Origin: Methanolinea sp.
GTDB taxonomy: Archaea > Halobacteriota > Methanomicrobia > Methanomicrobiales > Methanospirillaceae
Direction of reading: 5' to 3'
DNA: 64,000 nucleotides
Assembly (NCBI GenBank): GCA_030019395.1
Contig: JASEES010000005.1
Location: forward strand, 1 to 64,000
This document shows, piece after piece, positions 2,614 through 59,186 of the stretch. The notes under the pieces are model-generated. The model was not told the origin of the DNA. It saw nothing but the letters and a program-made list of their open reading frames with translations, and did no database searches. Position numbers and translations under genes: made by a program. Positions within the stretch are counted from its first letter, which is position 1. Every line of letters begins with the position of its first letter.

Positions 2614-2702
2614 CCAGGATCATACGCGGACCATCACCTGTCTCTCACCTCGGCATCCCCTGCAGGAAGTGTTTTTCCCGGAAGAACGCTTACCTGATAG
2701 GG

Positions 2703-3896
2703 ATGGAAGGGATCGTTGCCACGCCCGAGTTCCAGGTGAGCCTCCTCCTCTTTGCAGCACTGGGAGGTTACCTCCTTGCATCGCGGATCAACCAGTCCGC
2801 GGTTGTGGGGATCATCCTGGTCGGGCTCCTGATTGGACCGAGTGTCCTGGACCTCGTCACGTATAACGAGTTCGTCAGGGGCCTTGCCCACCTCGGGGCT
2901 GTCGTCCTCCTCTTCGTCATCGGGTTTGAGTTCAAGCTCAAGGACATCGTCCGGCCTGCCTATGCCTTCATCGCACTGATAGGTGTCATCATCCCATGGC
3001 TGGGAGGGTATGCAACCGCGTTATGGGCGGGGATGGAATTTCAAACGGCACTCTTCGTGGGGACTGCACTGACTGCCACGAGTATTGCAATCACGGCAAA
3101 CGTTCTCCAGGAGATGAACAAGCTCCAGACCGACGCCGCACGGGCGATCATCGGGGCGGCGGTCATCGACGATGTCCTCAGCCTGATTGCCCTTGCGATC
3201 ACGGGCGACGTGGTGGCGGGGGCATTCCACCCTTCCGTTATCTTATTCATCCTCCTCAAGGTTGTCATATTCCTCCTCGTGGCAGGGGCTGTCGGGATAT
3301 TCATCGTGAGCAGGTTTTTGGTCAGGCTGGACAACACCCCCTTCGTGGCCCGCTACCCTGAATTCATCTTCATCTTCGCGATGACCTTTGCCTTCCTCTA
3401 TGCCATGATCGCAGAGCTCGTGGGCCTTTCTGCCATCGTCGGCGCCTTCATCGCCGGGATATCATTCGAGAGACTGACACTGCGCAAGAGCCTCGATGTC
3501 AAGGAGGGTGCCGAGTTCCTCAAGATAATCTTCGCTGCGATATTTTTCGTCTCCCTCGGCGTCGTTGCCGATTTCAAGACCCTGACGCCCGATATTTTAC
3601 CTTTCCTTGTCGTCCTGACAATCGTGGCCATCGTGACGAAGGTCGTCGGGTGTGCAATTCCTGCCCGGATCGCCGGGATATGCAGAAAAGATTCGCTCAT
3701 CATCGGGTTTGGCATGGCCCCCCGGGGGGAGGTGGCGATGATCGTCGCCCTGATTGGTCTTGAACAGGGGTATATCGGGCAGGCGGTCTTCGTGGCAATC
3801 ATCGTGATGAGCCTGCTGACAACGTTAATTACACCGATAATTTACCGGAACTGGTTCTTCAAAGACGAGAACTGCGGCCAGGTCCAGCAGATTTAG
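2703..3896 (+). CDS. NapA-type Na+/H+ antiporter (CPA2), no RCK domain
   Basis: 397 residues, almost entirely the CPA2 exchanger membrane domain with 11-13 hydrophobic segments. The core shows the typical ALTATSIAITANVL and AAVIDDVL stretches; the paired aspartates of the latter (about residues 155-156) are the ion-binding pair of electrogenic NapA-like exchangers. There is no C-terminal TrkA domain, unlike the gene just upstream. It probably exchanges Na+ (or K+) for H+ at the cytoplasmic membrane. The start ATG at 2703 has only a weak GG-rich ribosome site. It lies 89 bases after the Kef-type gene and may be co-transcribed. Confidence 0.9.
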   Translation: MEGIVATPEFQVSLLLFAALGGYLLASRINQSAVVGIILVGLLIGPSVLDLVTYNEFVRGLAHLGAVVLLFVIGFEFKLKDIVRPAYAFIALIGVIIPWLGGYATALWAGMEFQTALFVGTALTATSIAITANVLQEMNKLQTDAARAIIGAAVIDDVLSLIALAITGDVVAGAFHPSVILFILLKVVIFLLVAGAVGIFIVSRFLVRLDNTPFVARYPEFIFIFAMTFAFLYAMIAELVGLSAIVGAFIAGISFERLTLRKSLDVKEGAEFLKIIFAAIFFVSLGVVADFKTLTPDILPFLVVLTIVAIVTKVVGCAIPARIAGICRKDSLIIGFGMAPRGEVAMIVALIGLEQGYIGQAVFVAIIVMSLLTTLITPIIYRNWFFKDENCGQVQQI

Positions 3897-53896: not shown

Positions 53897-55879
53897 TCAG
53901 ATCCCGTCCGGGACGTAGGACGGCCACATGATCCGGATGGCTTCGAACTTCCCGTATTGTGCGTCCATGTTCTTCGGATCCAGTTCAAGGGCACGATCGA
54001 AGGACTTGATCGCGTCCTGGATCCTGCCGGTTTTCACGAGGGCATATCCCCTGTTGGACCAGGTCAGGGAGTTGGCAGGGTCTTTCTTCAGGAGCTTGTC
54101 GTAAACGGCAAGGGCCTTTTCATACTGGCCGGACCTGTAGTATGCGACACCGAGGAAGATGAGGGATTCATCGGCATCAGGCATTGTTTTCTGGAGAACA
54201 TCGAAGGTCCTGATCGCTCCAAGGTAGTCACCGGAAGCGATCTGGATCTTGCCCCTTGCCACGAGCGCTTCGTAATTGGAAGGATCTTTTTCGAGGATTC
54301 GGGAAAGGGCGAGCTGGGCCTCACCCATGCGGTTCAGGATGACGAGTGCGGTGGCTTTCCGGAGGAGGAGCGTTGTATTCCATGAATCTGTCTTCAGCTG
54401 ACGGTCCGTTATCCAGACTGCCTCCTCCCCCCTCCCGAGGGCCCTGAGCGCATAGACCTTGTACTGCCAGGCTGTCATGCTCTCCGGGTCGAGTTCGAGG
54501 ACCCGGTCGAGGGCCGACAAGGCCTCTTCATTGTTCTTTGCCATATAGAGGGCTATTCCCTTGTTCAGCCAGATGTCCGATGCATTCGGGTTGAGCGTGA
54601 GGGCCTTGTCGAAGTAGGGGATGGCTTTCTGGAACTCTCCCTTCTGGAGGAGAGCCATGCCCCCTGTTGACCATGCTAACGAATCCTTGGGATTCAGTCT
54701 TGTTGCCCTGTTGGCATCATCAAGGGCCTCGGTGAACCGGCCGAGCCTGTAATCGGCAAGGGCCCTATACGACCAGGCAGTGGCAAGGTCAGGCTGAAGG
54801 GTGGTAGCACGATCGAGATCACCGAGTGCGTCTTCTCCTTTTCCAAGGTTGAGGAGTGCAAAACCCCTGTTGGTATATGCGGCAGGGTTCCCGGGATCGA
54901 TTGCGATTGCCTGGGAGTATGCAGAGACGGCATCCCCGAACATCCCCAGGGAATTGTAGGAAAAGCCCCTGTTGTTCCATGCAACTGCATTGTTTGGTTC
55001 AAGACTGATTGCAGTGCCGGATGCATCGAGCGATTCGTTGAAGCGACCGAGGTTATTCAGGAGGAAGCTTTTGTGGACCCAGTACGTGGCATTGCCGGGT
55101 TCCAGGACCAGTATCCTGTCGATGGTGGACAGTGCCTCCTCCGTCCGCCCCAGTGCGGCAAGCACCTGGGCTTTTTTCGAGAGCACGGAGGTGCTGTCGG
55201 GGTCGATCCCGAGAGCCTGGTCATACGACGAGAGGGCCTCCCCGTTTCTCCCGAACCGGGAGAGGAGGTCTCCCCGGGCAACAGCGGCACTTGCAAGAGC
55301 GGGATCCATTGCAAGCGCCTGGTCGTAGGCACGGAGGGCTTCGCCCCACAACTGGAGTGCGACGAGGGTGTCACCGAGGTTCTTTGCTGCCGGTGCGTAG
55401 GATTCGTTTGTCCGGAGGGCTACAAGGAAAAACCTCCGGGCTTCAGGATATTTTCCCATGCGGGAATAGGCAATTCCGATACCGTTCCATGCGGTCGTCA
55501 TATTAATATCGAGGGCGATCGCCCTGTCGTACGCCCGGGCTGCATCGTAGTTTTGGTCCATCGCGAGCAGGACATCGCCGAGGGCCACCCACCGGGGGGC
55601 AGAAGACGGGTCGAGTGCGAGTGACCGGTTCAATGACTCGAAAGCTTCGTTTTCCCTGCCCATGCGGTGCAGGGCTTTTCCGCGGCCTTCCCAGGCTTCA
55701 ACATTTTCCCCGTTGATCGCGATTGCCCTGTCGAACAGCACAAGCGACTGCTCGAGGTTCCCCTGCTCCAGGAGCCTGGCCCCCTCCCTGGCGAGATCGG
55801 CATCCGGGTAAGAGACGCAAGCCGCAAGAAAAGGGACGAGGACGACCAGGACGGCGAGCAGCCAGGGAACTTTCTGCAT
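53897..55879 (-). CDS. TPR-repeat lipoprotein
   Basis: 660 residues. Signal peptide with a lipobox-like LAAC (Cys21) suggests lipid anchoring on the outer face of the membrane. The rest (about 30-645) is a near-continuous run of some 17-18 tetratricopeptide repeats with the AxxxYDxALxLDPxN pattern, for example YDQALAMDPALASA and FDRALELDPKN. TPR proteins scaffold protein complexes. There is no enzymatic domain. It faces the thiL gene tail to tail with a 2-base gap, and begins a group of four surface/secreted-protein genes. Confidence 0.88.
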   Translation of the reverse strand: MQKVPWLLAVLVVLVPFLAACVSYPDADLAREGARLLEQGNLEQSLVLFDRAIAINGENVEAWEGRGKALHRMGRENEAFESLNRSLALDPSSAPRWVALGDVLLAMDQNYDAARAYDRAIALDINMTTAWNGIGIAYSRMGKYPEARRFFLVALRTNESYAPAAKNLGDTLVALQLWGEALRAYDQALAMDPALASAAVARGDLLSRFGRNGEALSSYDQALGIDPDSTSVLSKKAQVLAALGRTEEALSTIDRILVLEPGNATYWVHKSFLLNNLGRFNESLDASGTAISLEPNNAVAWNNRGFSYNSLGMFGDAVSAYSQAIAIDPGNPAAYTNRGFALLNLGKGEDALGDLDRATTLQPDLATAWSYRALADYRLGRFTEALDDANRATRLNPKDSLAWSTGGMALLQKGEFQKAIPYFDKALTLNPNASDIWLNKGIALYMAKNNEEALSALDRVLELDPESMTAWQYKVYALRALGRGEEAVWITDRQLKTDSWNTTLLLRKATALVILNRMGEAQLALSRILEKDPSNYEALVARGKIQIASGDYLGAIRTFDVLQKTMPDADESLIFLGVAYYRSGQYEKALAVYDKLLKKDPANSLTWSNRGYALVKTGRIQDAIKSFDRALELDPKNMDAQYGKFEAIRIMWPSYVPDGI

Positions 55880-56008: not shown

Positions 56009-56794
56009 TCAATACCGGCGTACGCCTGACCCGTAGCTCATCGTCTTTTCGAAGGACTGGATGGTGCCTGAAGCGGTCGTCTTCTCGGATCCCATGATAT
56101 CCATGGACTTGTTCAGGGAGTCTCCCCGTGCACTCTGCAGGTGCATGCGGTAATATGCAGATGCCGTTCCCTGGCCCGCAAGGCTGATACTGTAGTCCAT
56201 GGCGACCGGGACATCAGCTTTTGCTGCAACGTGCCTCTCGCTCGCAATCGTCGTCATGGAGACTGATGTCCCGGAGAATGAACTTCCCATCTCGACGATG
56301 TTGCAGTATGCAGGGATCGTGTCACCTGAAGACGCTCCAAACGGACACAGGATCCTGTCCGACGCCGGAGAACCCATGCTGGCACCGTCGAGGGCAAGGC
56401 TCTCGCTCGAGATAACGCTGCCGTACGCATCATTGAAACTGACGAAATCCAGCTGCCTCACTGACTTGAAATTATTCTGGTTCACAACCTGGTTGCCCGT
56501 GTCGAGGTCTGCCACCTTGTTGTATTCGACGTACCCGTTGTTCGCGTTCGTGGACTCGGAATACGACATGGTGGCCTGGCGCTCTGATGCGCTCAGGTAC
56601 GTGTTGTCATCGAGAGCCCCGCTCGACTGCTGCCAGACGATGGAGGCTTCGTTCGAGAAAGTACCATACACGACAACGGAGGTCTCCGTGTGGATGGACT
56701 GCGTCTCGAACGTCGCGTTCATGGGGTCGTCTGCACTCGCATATCCCAGCAGGAAAAATGCCAGGAGAAGAACGAAGAGTCCTTTTTTTTCCAT
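56009..56794 (-). CDS. Secreted protein, family A long form
   Basis: 261 residues. Signal peptide (about 1-21, cut after ASA) and no C-terminal anchor. It is about half identical, by eye, to the protein at 58342-59124 along most of its length: shared LCPFGASS, YCNIVEMGSSFSGTSVSMTTIA, ARGDSLNKSMDI, SEKTTASGTI and a C-terminal SGVRRY. Two cysteines (LCPFG and YCNIV) are conserved and may pair. I do not recognise a database family; it looks like an extracellular beta-rich protein. Ribosome site AAGGTGT precedes ATG 56794. Confidence 0.8.
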   Translation of the reverse strand: MEKKGLFVLLLAFFLLGYASADDPMNATFETQSIHTETSVVVYGTFSNEASIVWQQSSGALDDNTYLSASERQATMSYSESTNANNGYVEYNKVADLDTGNQVVNQNNFKSVRQLDFVSFNDAYGSVISSESLALDGASMGSPASDRILCPFGASSGDTIPAYCNIVEMGSSFSGTSVSMTTIASERHVAAKADVPVAMDYSISLAGQGTASAYYRMHLQSARGDSLNKSMDIMGSEKTTASGTIQSFEKTMSYGSGVRRY

Positions 56795-56903
56795 GGATAA
56801 ACACCTTGTTTCTCTGTATCGCGGAAATTGTTAAAGATTATTGACATCTACTCCGATATTAACTTCTAAGTTTTTCATAGGGTGGGAAAAGGTATATTGT
56901 CGT

Positions 56904-57254
56904 TCAGGACCTGCCTGAACTCCAGTGGTATTCGATAAAATATTTCATGATCGTTCCCGATGCAGTGGTCTGCTGGGAGAAGGAGACCGATTTCGATGCT
57001 CCCTGCATCGTTCCCCGCATGAACGATGTGGCAGTCCCGATACCGGCGATGTCTGCGCTGTAACTCGTTGTCACCGGTTTGAGAACACCCGAACCGACAA
57101 AGCGGTCCCCTGCAATCGTTGTCATGGAAACAGATTTCCCGGAAAACGAACTGCCTGCTTCAAAAACATTGCAAAAATTACCTGCGTATGCTGCCGAAAC
57201 GGTACTGACCGCGAGCAGGAGCAACAGCAATGCACCAGTTACTATGTATTTCAT
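56904..57254 (-). CDS. Secreted protein, half-length relative of family A
   Basis: 116 residues with its own signal peptide (about 1-22). From residue 27 on it matches the C-terminal half of the two long proteins nearby: FCNVFEAGSSFSGKSVSMTTIAGDRFV, then a SADIAGIGTATSFMRGTMQ stretch and TTASGTIMKYF, but the final SGVRRY is replaced by SSGRS. It keeps only one of the two conserved cysteines. A strong GGAGGAGGG ribosome site precedes ATG 57254, so this is an intact gene, not a decayed copy. Function unknown. Confidence 0.78.
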   Translation of the reverse strand: MKYIVTGALLLLLLAVSTVSAAYAGNFCNVFEAGSSFSGKSVSMTTIAGDRFVGSGVLKPVTTSYSADIAGIGTATSFMRGTMQGASKSVSFSQQTTASGTIMKYFIEYHWSSGRS

Positions 57255-57374
57255 TATCCCTCCTCCTTACATCACGTATGTGTATTTTTTGACTAGTATT
57301 TCCTTCACACTGCATTTAAATTTTTTCCACTTCCTGGTTGGATAATGAGCTCACATCACAATATTAACGTGGTG

Positions 57375-57390
57375 CCCGAATGATTTCGGG
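57375..57390. repeat. Hairpin-forming inverted repeat
   Basis: CCCGAA, TGAT, TTCGGG is a perfect 6-base stem with a 4-base loop, 51-66 bases downstream of the repeat-protein gene on the minus strand and upstream of the half-length gene. It could be part of a terminator or an RNA-processing site. Confidence 0.4.
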
Positions 57391-57409
57391 ATATTACACC
57401 TGAGATAAC

Positions 57410-57436
57410 AAAGAAGGAAAAAGAAAATTTAACCTT
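57410..57436 (-). terminator. T-rich terminator of the repeat-protein gene
   Basis: On the minus strand the sequence just after the stop of the repeat-protein gene is rich in T runs (TTTTAATC... TTTTCTTTTTCCTTCTTTG in short pieces), typical of archaeal termination. Confidence 0.4.
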
Positions 57437-57440
57437 TTAA

Positions 57441-57878
57441 TCAGGGAAAGCGAAAGGCGTCATCGAGCGTCTTTGCAGAGGAAGGTTTCCAGACAGGAAG
57501 TGTGAAGACATCCTCAAAAGTTTTTCCCGAGGACGGCATAATGGTTGGAGCCTTGAACACGTCATCGAAGGAGCTTCCCGAGGACGGTGTAATGGTCGGA
57601 GCCTTGAACACGTCATCGAATGTTTTTCCCGAGGATGGTGTAATGGTCGGAGCCTTGAACACGTCATCGAAGGAGCTTCCCGAGGACGGTGTAATGGTCG
57701 GAGCCTTGAACACGTCATCGAATGTTTTTCCCGAGGACGGTGTAATATTTGGTGCCGTGAACACATCGTCATATGTTTCTCCGGACGAGGGAGTCAGGTT
57801 CTCTAATAAGGCTGAAACGCTGTAGCCCGTCAGAACGACCAGACTGATGAAAAGTACAAGAAATGCAATTTTTCTCAT
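57441..57878 (-). CDS. Secreted 17-residue tandem-repeat protein
   Basis: 145 residues from ATG 57878, supported by AGAGGT before it and a TATA box (CTATAATAG) about 45 bases upstream. Signal peptide about 1-24. Nearly all the rest consists of seven repeats of a 17-residue unit with consensus ITPSSGKTFDDVFKAPT; successive units alternate KTFDD and SSFDD. The unit is rich in Ser, Pro, Asp and Phe and has no cysteines. I know of no family. Such a repeat suggests a structural, adhesive or scaffolding role, possibly binding the secreted proteins encoded on either side. Confidence 0.78.
   Translation of the reverse strand: MRKIAFLVLFISLVVLTGYSVSALLENLTPSSGETYDDVFTAPNITPSSGKTFDDVFKAPTITPSSGSSFDDVFKAPTITPSSGKTFDDVFKAPTITPSSGSSFDDVFKAPTIMPSSGKTFEDVFTLPVWKPSSAKTLDDAFRFP
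57526..57780. repeat. 51-bp tandem repeat inside the repeat-protein gene
   Basis: Five nearly identical 51-bp units start at 57526, 57577, 57628, 57679 and 57730, each opening CCCGAGGA. The units at 57577-57627 and 57679-57729 are identical, and units alternate in their last ten bases, giving a 102-bp higher-order period. Because 51 is divisible by 3 the frame is kept. Further diverged units lie on both sides. This is recent duplication within a coding sequence, not CRISPR. Confidence 0.9.
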
Positions 57879-57918
57879 GGTGAACCTCTTGTTTTTATTT
57901 CTGCATTTTGTCATGCGT

Positions 57919-57927
57919 CTATTATAG
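57919..57927 (-). promoter_or_regulatory. TATA box of the repeat-protein gene
   Basis: Read on the minus strand this is CTATAATAG, about 41-49 bases before ATG 57878. Transcription would start near 57898, leaving a leader of about 20 bases with the AGAGGT ribosome site. Confidence 0.6.
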
Positions 57928-58281
57928 TCTTTCCCCCTGACAGTCATGCAGCCGTGTCCCTGTATGAGTGGTTCTGGTAATACCTTTCAGGAACCGGTTT
58001 AAGCGTGAGGGAGGAAAAGCGGGAGTATGCCTCACTCTCTGTCTGTTTTGATGACCTTGAAATCAATTTCTCTAAAGAGTAATCACCTTTCAGCTCTCAA
58101 TTTTCAGTTTTTGGTTCCTGCAAGCAGCACGAGCAGGATTCCAAAAGCACGGAGCAATAATTCAGGTGTTCATAAAAGATCCACAAGCCGGGTGTATTCT
58201 CTTCTTTTGAAGAGTTCTTACCGTGTTTTCCAGAATTATCCGGATATTCCGGGGAAGAGACAGATGGAAAAGAACAGAAAG

Positions 58282-58313
58282 ATAAAAAAAATGGGAGGGG
58301 AGTTTTTCTCCCC
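58282..58313 (-). terminator. Hairpin plus T-tract terminator
   Basis: On the minus strand, GGGGAG and CTCCCC arms (58297-58302 and 58308-58313) with a 5-base A loop are followed by an eight-base T run (58283-58290), about 29-59 bases after the stop of the secreted-protein gene. Both elements of a strong terminator are present, fitting a highly expressed gene. Confidence 0.7.
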
Positions 58314-58341
58314 CCTTTTTCAGGTCGCTCTACTGAAGATT

Positions 58342-59124
58342 TCAGTAGCGGCGGACACCGGACTGGTAGTTGATCGCCTTGCTGAAGCTGGTGATCATAC
58401 CAGATGCGGTGGTCTTCTCGGAAGCGACGATGTCGAGCGACTTGTTAGCGGAGTCGTCTCCACGGGCCTCCTGGAAGTGTGCACGGTAGTAGGCGGCTGC
58501 AGTGCCCTGTCCGCTCAGGCCGACGCTGTAGTCAACGACGACCGGGACATCAGCGGACTTGGCGACGTGCCTCTCGTCAGCGACCGTTGTCATGGAGACT
58601 GCGGTGCCGGAGAAGGTGCTGCCGACCTCGATGATGTTACAGAATGCCGGGAAGTCAGCTGAGGATGCACCGAACGGGCACAGGAACTTGTCAGCCGTGG
58701 TGGTGTTCATTCCTGCACCGTCGAGCGTGAGCGACTCGGCAGTTGCTACCTGGCCGTATGCATCGTCATAGGACACGTAGTCGAGCTGCTTGGTGGTCTT
58801 GTAGTTGTAGGTGTTGACTACCTTGTTTGCAGTGTCAAGAGCATTTCCAGCGTTGAACTCGGCATACCCGTTGTTGCCCTGGACGGACTGGGTGTATGCC
58901 ATCGTGTACTGGACCTCACCATCGTCGAGGGATGCTCCAGTGATATCCTGGTCGCTCATTGTCCACACGATGCTCTCTGCGTTGGTGAGTGCGCCAGAGA
59001 CGACCACTGCAGTGCTCGTGGTGACTCCCTGAGTCTCGTATGTCTGGTTGACCGGTCTGTCTGCCATTGCCATGCCTACGGCGAGGAAGGCAAGGGCAAG
59101 GACCGCAATTGCGAATTTCTTCAT
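58342..59124 (-). CDS. Secreted protein, family A long form
   Basis: 260 residues. Signal peptide about 1-22 (AMA cut), no anchor. Shares with the 56009 gene the motifs LCPFGASSADF, FCNIIEVGSTFSGTAVSMTTVADERHV, ARGDDSANKSLDI, SEKTTASGMI and SGVRRY. A very strong GTAGGAGG ribosome site, a TATA box, a leader with a stem-loop (59146-59160) and a hairpin terminator suggest high expression. It is probably a major extracellular protein. I do not recognise a family; possible roles include cell sheath, matrix or fibre, none of which the sequence settles. Confidence 0.82.
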   Translation of the reverse strand: MKKFAIAVLALAFLAVGMAMADRPVNQTYETQGVTTSTAVVVSGALTNAESIVWTMSDQDITGASLDDGEVQYTMAYTQSVQGNNGYAEFNAGNALDTANKVVNTYNYKTTKQLDYVSYDDAYGQVATAESLTLDGAGMNTTTADKFLCPFGASSADFPAFCNIIEVGSTFSGTAVSMTTVADERHVAKSADVPVVVDYSVGLSGQGTAAAYYRAHFQEARGDDSANKSLDIVASEKTTASGMITSFSKAINYQSGVRRY

Positions 59125-59186
59125 TATGTTCCTCCTACATTTTATGCTGATACTCTCAGCATCAACCAGACATTTTGATCCCGGTT

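Follow-up and report, generated by a model that had tools for sequence, protein, structure and literature searches.

This analysis concerns four neighbouring genes in the window, by which we mean the whole stretch of DNA that was analysed (64,000 nucleotides: positions 1 to 64,000, forward strand, of contig JASEES010000005.1, Methanolinea sp. assembly GCA_030019395.1). All four genes are on the minus strand and, in transcription order, encode a full-length protein (SH-A), a repeat protein (REP), a half-length relative (half-length SH) and a second full-length protein (SH-B). Together they probably constitute a sheath-protein (SH/MspA) locus of a Methanolinea-type methanogen, equipped with a half subunit and REP. 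The genes and the signals around them were as follows:

58342..59124, minus strand: SH-A, putative full-length cap-less sheath protein, 260 aa, with signal peptide, six predicted beta-arches and Cys149/Cys162
57441..57878, minus strand: REP, secreted protein, 145 aa, seven 17-residue units
56904..57254, minus strand: half-length SH, 116 aa, signal peptide plus C-terminal SH half, three predicted beta-arches, without linker loop
56009..56794, minus strand: SH-B, another putative cap-less SH of full length, 261 aa, its gene immediately 3' of that for half-length SH
59130..59136, minus strand: ribosome-binding site of SH-A, AGGAGGA, read directly
57258..57266, minus strand: ribosome-binding site of half-length SH, GGAGGAGGG, read directly
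57313..57322, minus strand: TATA-box-like AATTTAAATG upstream of half-length SH, read directly
58295..58316, minus strand: terminator-like hairpin and T-run downstream of SH-A, pattern GGGGGGAG-loop-CTCCCC followed by Ts

An earlier note, made from the sequence of the window, had described two proteins of about 260 residues and a 116-residue relative as an unnamed secreted family. The grouping was upheld: SH-A and SH-B are 58% identical, the 116-residue protein aligns to the C-terminal half of both, and the sequence similarity among the three is far beyond chance. Among the motifs listed as common to the family, GS[TS]FSG and TTASG occur in all three proteins, and LCPFG and SGVRRY are restricted to SH-A and SH-B (the half-length SH ends in SGRS). 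Judged by eye, each protein begins with a signal-peptide-like segment and lacks a C-terminal anchor, as had been stated, and the secreted repeat protein in their midst was confirmed, with REP comprising seven units of exactly 17 residues.

No match above the curated cut-off was obtained for SH-A, SH-B, half-length SH or REP in Pfam, NCBIfam and PHROGs; the absence of the family from these databases explains why the earlier reader could not place it. A sequence search of the PDB returned no solved structure matching the window proteins. The full-length members were recovered in a search of the window's genome with E about 1e-150, and a profile made from the window proteins matched a 377-aa M. 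hungatei-type SH in genome G197 (E 1.5e-23). This protein has a mass of 40.5 kDa and carries D43, T86, S144, N157, C271 and K363, in accordance with the published positions and size of SH. The sheath protein of M. hungatei JF-1, SH/MspA, is WP_011449234.1, Mhun_2271 (PMC6242892, PMC10593813; PMC6242892 and PMC11576556 are cited throughout for part of their text), and G197 is, by these residues, inferred to be M. hungatei JF-1. Because the matched protein has the published residues and mass of SH, homology places SH-A and SH-B in the SH/MspA family, whose founder forms the amyloid-like sheath rings of M. hungatei.

The statement that these proteins could not be assigned to any family was therefore overturned: the literature name is SH/MspA, and 'unnamed' applies to Pfam, NCBIfam and PHROGs, in which no member is matched. 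The note had held that its description would fall with a clear hit to a known family, or with a lack of homologues outside this contig; the former was obtained with SH/MspA, and well over a hundred homologues were found in other genomes. Its guess that the proteins may build a sheath, fibre or matrix agrees with their homology to M. hungatei SH, which was identified biochemically and fitted into cryo-electron tomography maps. The half-length member and the repeat protein, which it had placed among them, proved to be conserved partners of SH genes.

The structure of SH-A was predicted with AlphaFold2, with 25 sequences of the family, drawn from the window and from named loci, as input. The model (pLDDT 80.6, pTM 0.78) contains an N-terminal helix (4-15) and six beta segments of about 25 residues (33-57, 71-97, 108-138, which is broken, 161-185, 196-220 and 228-254). 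As modelled, the fold is that of the SH core, with six beta-arches and two six-stranded sheets, and without the cap domain. Alignment with M. hungatei SH revealed no insert after arch 1 in SH-A or SH-B, the cap being absent from both, and a cap domain is not required for SH membership (PMC11576556). Fold searches yielded no meaningful match (query-normalised TM-scores below about 0.35), and matches to MACPF/complement and porin folds were rejected as artefacts of long strands.

A flexible central loop of SH-A between arches 3 and 4 (142-156), modelled with low confidence, holds Cys149, and Cys162 opens arch 4. This linker/sheet cysteine pair (C149/C162 in SH-A, C150/C164 in SH-B) has counterparts in Cys257 (linker tip) and Cys271 (sheet 1) of M. 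hungatei, which were proposed to join adjacent rings within a hoop (PMC10593813). Of 118 full-length members, 115 retain the linker cysteine and 104 the sheet cysteine. For M. hungatei SH, a single cysteine (C271) is given in PMC6242892 and two in PMC10593813; the genome (L056, G197:C1:2536912-2537535 region) shows two, C257 and C271.

The half-length SH was also modelled with AlphaFold2 (pLDDT 77.6, pTM 0.58) and shows exactly three arches (28-51, 62-84 and 89-112). According to profile mapping, its signal peptide is fused directly to the C-terminal half of the SH core. Having three arches instead of the six by which SH proteins were recognised, it was classed as a half-length relative and not as a regular SH. 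Twenty-two distinct half-length genes were present among the loci collected, in Methanolinea, Methanospirillum-like and other genera; all encode C-terminal halves and all have a signal-peptide-like start. The linker cysteine is present in none of the 22 and the sheet cysteine in seven. No genuine N-terminal-half gene was found among these loci, the sole N-only frame being truncated with a C fragment downstream (L035), and the idea of a split subunit, in which the C-half pairs with a separately encoded N-half, was rejected for want of such a gene. At L035 (G227:C91), a full-length SH gene is apparently broken, with 2646-3326 holding the N-terminal frame and 3158-3412 the C-terminal fragment. 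Comparison of N-half and C-half profiles did not support an internal duplication of the SH core (probability 2.4%); that the half subunit represents a single ancestral repeat unit is therefore not demonstrated.

Seventeen of the 22 half-length genes have a full-length SH gene on their own strand no more than 400 bases away: 13 are directly 5' of the nearest one, one is between two full-length genes and, in three Methanospirillum-like genomes, the half-length gene is directly 3' of its nearest one. The five exceptions comprise two genes at contig ends, two without SH in the few kb fetched, and one (G154) inside an SH cluster with REP intervening. The ratio of non-synonymous to synonymous substitution rates (dN/dS) was 0.02-0.17 in eight pairs of half-length genes from several lineages, and these values indicate that the genes are maintained under strong purifying selection. 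Trees of the C-terminal half required 6-8 state changes and rejected a single half-length clade (p-AU 0.0001); long branches and probable gene conversion with adjacent genes call for caution here. The half-length form would thus have arisen, or been retained, repeatedly.

REP has the unit consensus xTPSSGK[ST][FY][DE]D[VA]FKxP and is encoded by a 51-base tandem array. Matches to ADK_lid, DUF1381 and FYDLN_acid were discarded, as they were below cut-off, short and scattered, and that to FYDLN_acid was compositional. The 232 genomes of the order Methanomicrobiales were searched with REP alone and then with a nine-sequence profile. REP was found in 16 of them, nearly always in single copy, and all 16 are SH-positive: REP is a conserved secreted partner gene which, within the order, is confined to SH-bearing genomes. 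It occurs in 11 of 13 Methanolinea genomes (the two that lack it are 76% and 67% complete), and in eight of these 11 it lies inside the SH cluster. The gene order on complete contigs is full SH, REP, half SH, full SH; in other genera REP is located apart from SH. Five of nine divergent REP sequences have units spaced at exactly 17 residues, and the others mostly keep this spacing (G219 has a 20-residue form). Since the spacing is kept across divergent sequences, the period appears to be constrained while the sequence drifts. Outside the order, there were only weak matches to the repeat, in one distant genus of another family of the phylum (G285, G352, G386, G496); these fall within open frames of 413-683 aa, and the proteins are probably unrelated to REP.

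The same set of genomes provided the census of the family and of its co-occurrence with the repeat gene that the earlier note had proposed. SH members were present in 53 of the 232 genomes, in 13 of 40 genera, all of one family, and the window profile matched all Methanospirillum-like genomes searched. Named relatives are Methanolinea and Methanoregulaceae metagenome-assembled genomes, the closest protein being 97% identical to SH-A. In a 2024 survey, SH was reported in all Methanospirillum and Methanolinea and absent from Methanoregula (PMC11576556). Relatives outside the order were found in G244, G282, G335, G416 and others (family f10 of the phylum); these probably correspond to members already described from ANME-1 or Methanotrichales. 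The genome of the window (1.8 Mb, 50 contigs) has six SH members, three of them in the window and the others at the following positions:

C47:71763-72554: further SH paralogue, same genome, outside the window
C9:6847-7758: longer SH paralogue, same genome, carrying a possible cap as an insert between arches 1 and 2
C27:3988-4656: longer SH paralogue, same genome, carrying a possible cap as an insert between arches 1 and 2

This genome also encodes two proteins of the DUF3821 type, to which the S-layer protein of M. hungatei belongs (C8:36529-37155 and C13:23657-24223), and because of these the organism probably has an S-layer as well.

Strong ribosome sites, a TATA box and a hairpin terminator had also been noted at the locus and taken as suggesting high expression of at least one gene. 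The terminator after SH-A is real by pattern. The ribosome sites are strong for SH-A and half-length SH and weaker for SH-B and REP. As to expression, the codon bias of SH-A (0.76) exceeds that of every other SH gene of the genome (0.58-0.69); codon bias largely tracks GC content at third codon positions (GC3) in these genes and is here a poor proxy, so high expression is weakly supported. SH-A is likely the major ring subunit of the SH-A/SH-B pair. Directly downstream of SH-B (53897-55879, minus strand) lies a gene for a TPR-rich 660-aa protein with a lipoprotein-like signal (LAAC).

Compared with M. hungatei SH/MspA, the window proteins have in common the homologous core, the signal peptide, the predicted six-arch two-sheet core and the cysteine pair, C257/C271 corresponding to C149/C162. 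They differ in lacking its cap domain of about 110 residues, and the half-length member differs further in its three arches and missing linker cysteine. The SH proteins of Methanolinea and Methanoregulaceae described in PMC11576556 are of the same family, multi-copy and clustered; the main text of that paper gives no conserved context, accessory protein or half-length class, whereas the cassette of the window is conserved in the genus. Methanothrix MspA (ABK14853.1) is likewise a secreted protein of a sheathed methanogen, but is no structural relative of Methanospirillum SH and was probably misassigned as the major sheath protein (PMC11576556).

The following model is proposed for the locus. 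SH-A and SH-B would be secreted via the general secretion route, by inference from M. hungatei, and would polymerise by their edges, with arch 6 of each subunit placed against arch 1 of its neighbour, into giant beta-rings around the cell, with neighbouring rings joined through the linker and sheet cysteines. The half-length SH would be a low-copy subunit that modifies assembly: its arch-6 edge could pair with arch 1 of a full subunit, its arch-4 edge would match no exposed edge of a full subunit, and it would donate no inter-ring disulfide. Because the arch-4 edge would be left unpartnered and the linker to the next ring is absent, the half subunit may end a growing ring segment or mark the edge of a hoop. 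There is room for such a role, since a hoop may contain anything from two to six rings, a variation with no known cause (PMC10593813). The 17-residue units of REP may bind the sheath periodically, REP acting as a linker or plug-attachment protein; an extended unit of about 56 angstrom is twice the 28-angstrom subunit spacing, which is arithmetic only and not evidence.

Several points weigh against this model. The role of the half subunit as ring terminator or hoop edge comes from geometric reasoning on monomer models, and the half-length SH of the window is among the seven that keep the sheet cysteine. REP is not near SH in G126, G127, G146, G147, G148, G156 and G219, and had no match in several SH-bearing genera, including the Methanospirillum-like genomes searched, so it is not essential for sheaths in general. 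We know of no experiment on any Methanolinea sheath.

Four other explanations were weighed, two of which concern the half-length gene. It could be a functionless decay product, a truncated duplicate of full-length SH: SH clusters are known to duplicate (PMC11576556), and in G145, G151, G144 and G150 the C-terminal half of the half-length gene is close to the full-length genes next to it (branch distance 0.36-0.6), a pattern that a recent partial duplication or gene conversion would be expected to leave. The recurrence of the form in 22 distinct genes, each a C-terminal half to which a clean signal peptide is joined at the same position, the low dN/dS and the rejection of a single clade are difficult to reconcile with decay; by this record of selection and recurrence the idea is largely refuted, and we regard it as very unlikely. 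The main rival to the terminator role is that of an ordinary ring subunit in a half-unit slot (about 14 versus 28 angstrom) which adjusts the circumference. Three arches would supply exactly half as many strands as a full subunit, and SH rings are believed to combine different SH proteins (PMC11576556), but the first arch is arch-4-like and not arch-1-like, which means that insertion in mid-ring needs a non-native edge contact, and the linking cysteines are mostly lost. This filler function is somewhat unlikely.

The other two alternatives concern the nature of the full-length proteins. SH-A and SH-B, built on the same beta-arch core, might form another secreted matrix or an adhesive fibre instead of a sheath: neither has the cap domain by which hoops are joined in M. 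hungatei. Cap-less SH is accepted in sheathed archaea, Methanolinea is listed as SH-bearing (PMC11576556) and both ring-linking cysteines are kept in SH-A and SH-B, which make a different matrix or fibre unlikely. Alternatively, SH-A, SH-B and the half-length SH might derive from viruses of Methanospirillum and Methanolinea, whose SH-like proteins (159-288 aa), proposed for egress, also have a cap-less core and a signal peptide (PMC11576556). The half-length class (116-170 aa, with signal peptide) is chromosomal and beside host SH, ordinary chromosomal genes surround the locus, which is conserved throughout the genus, and a profile scan of viral contigs found no relative; a viral origin is highly improbable.

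The SH family, its amyloid-like architecture and its presence in Methanolinea were already known (PMC6242892, PMC10593813, PMC11576556). A text search of PMC11576556, which did not cover its supplementary tables, found no mention of half or truncated SH members, and M. hungatei homologues as short as 111 aa are listed, without further comment, in PMC6242892. Three elements appear to be new, pending the supplements of PMC11576556: the conserved cassette, REP as a partner, and a three-arch half-length class that has lost linking cysteines. The broadest reading is speculative and, taken whole, rather unlikely: that sheathed Methanomicrobiales use a dedicated three-arch half subunit, which evolved repeatedly from SH and is encoded next to it, to end rings or to mark hoop boundaries and division sites, and that REP of Methanolinea binds the lattice periodically as the missing linker or plug-attachment protein.

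SH genes encode the building blocks of the amyloid-like protein tube, the sheath, that houses some methane-producing archaea. The half subunit and REP, encoded in one cassette, are small, expressible candidates for the control of amyloid-like assembly, which makes the question directly testable. If the reading is true, they would represent the first accessory parts of the archaeal amyloid-like sheath to be identified.

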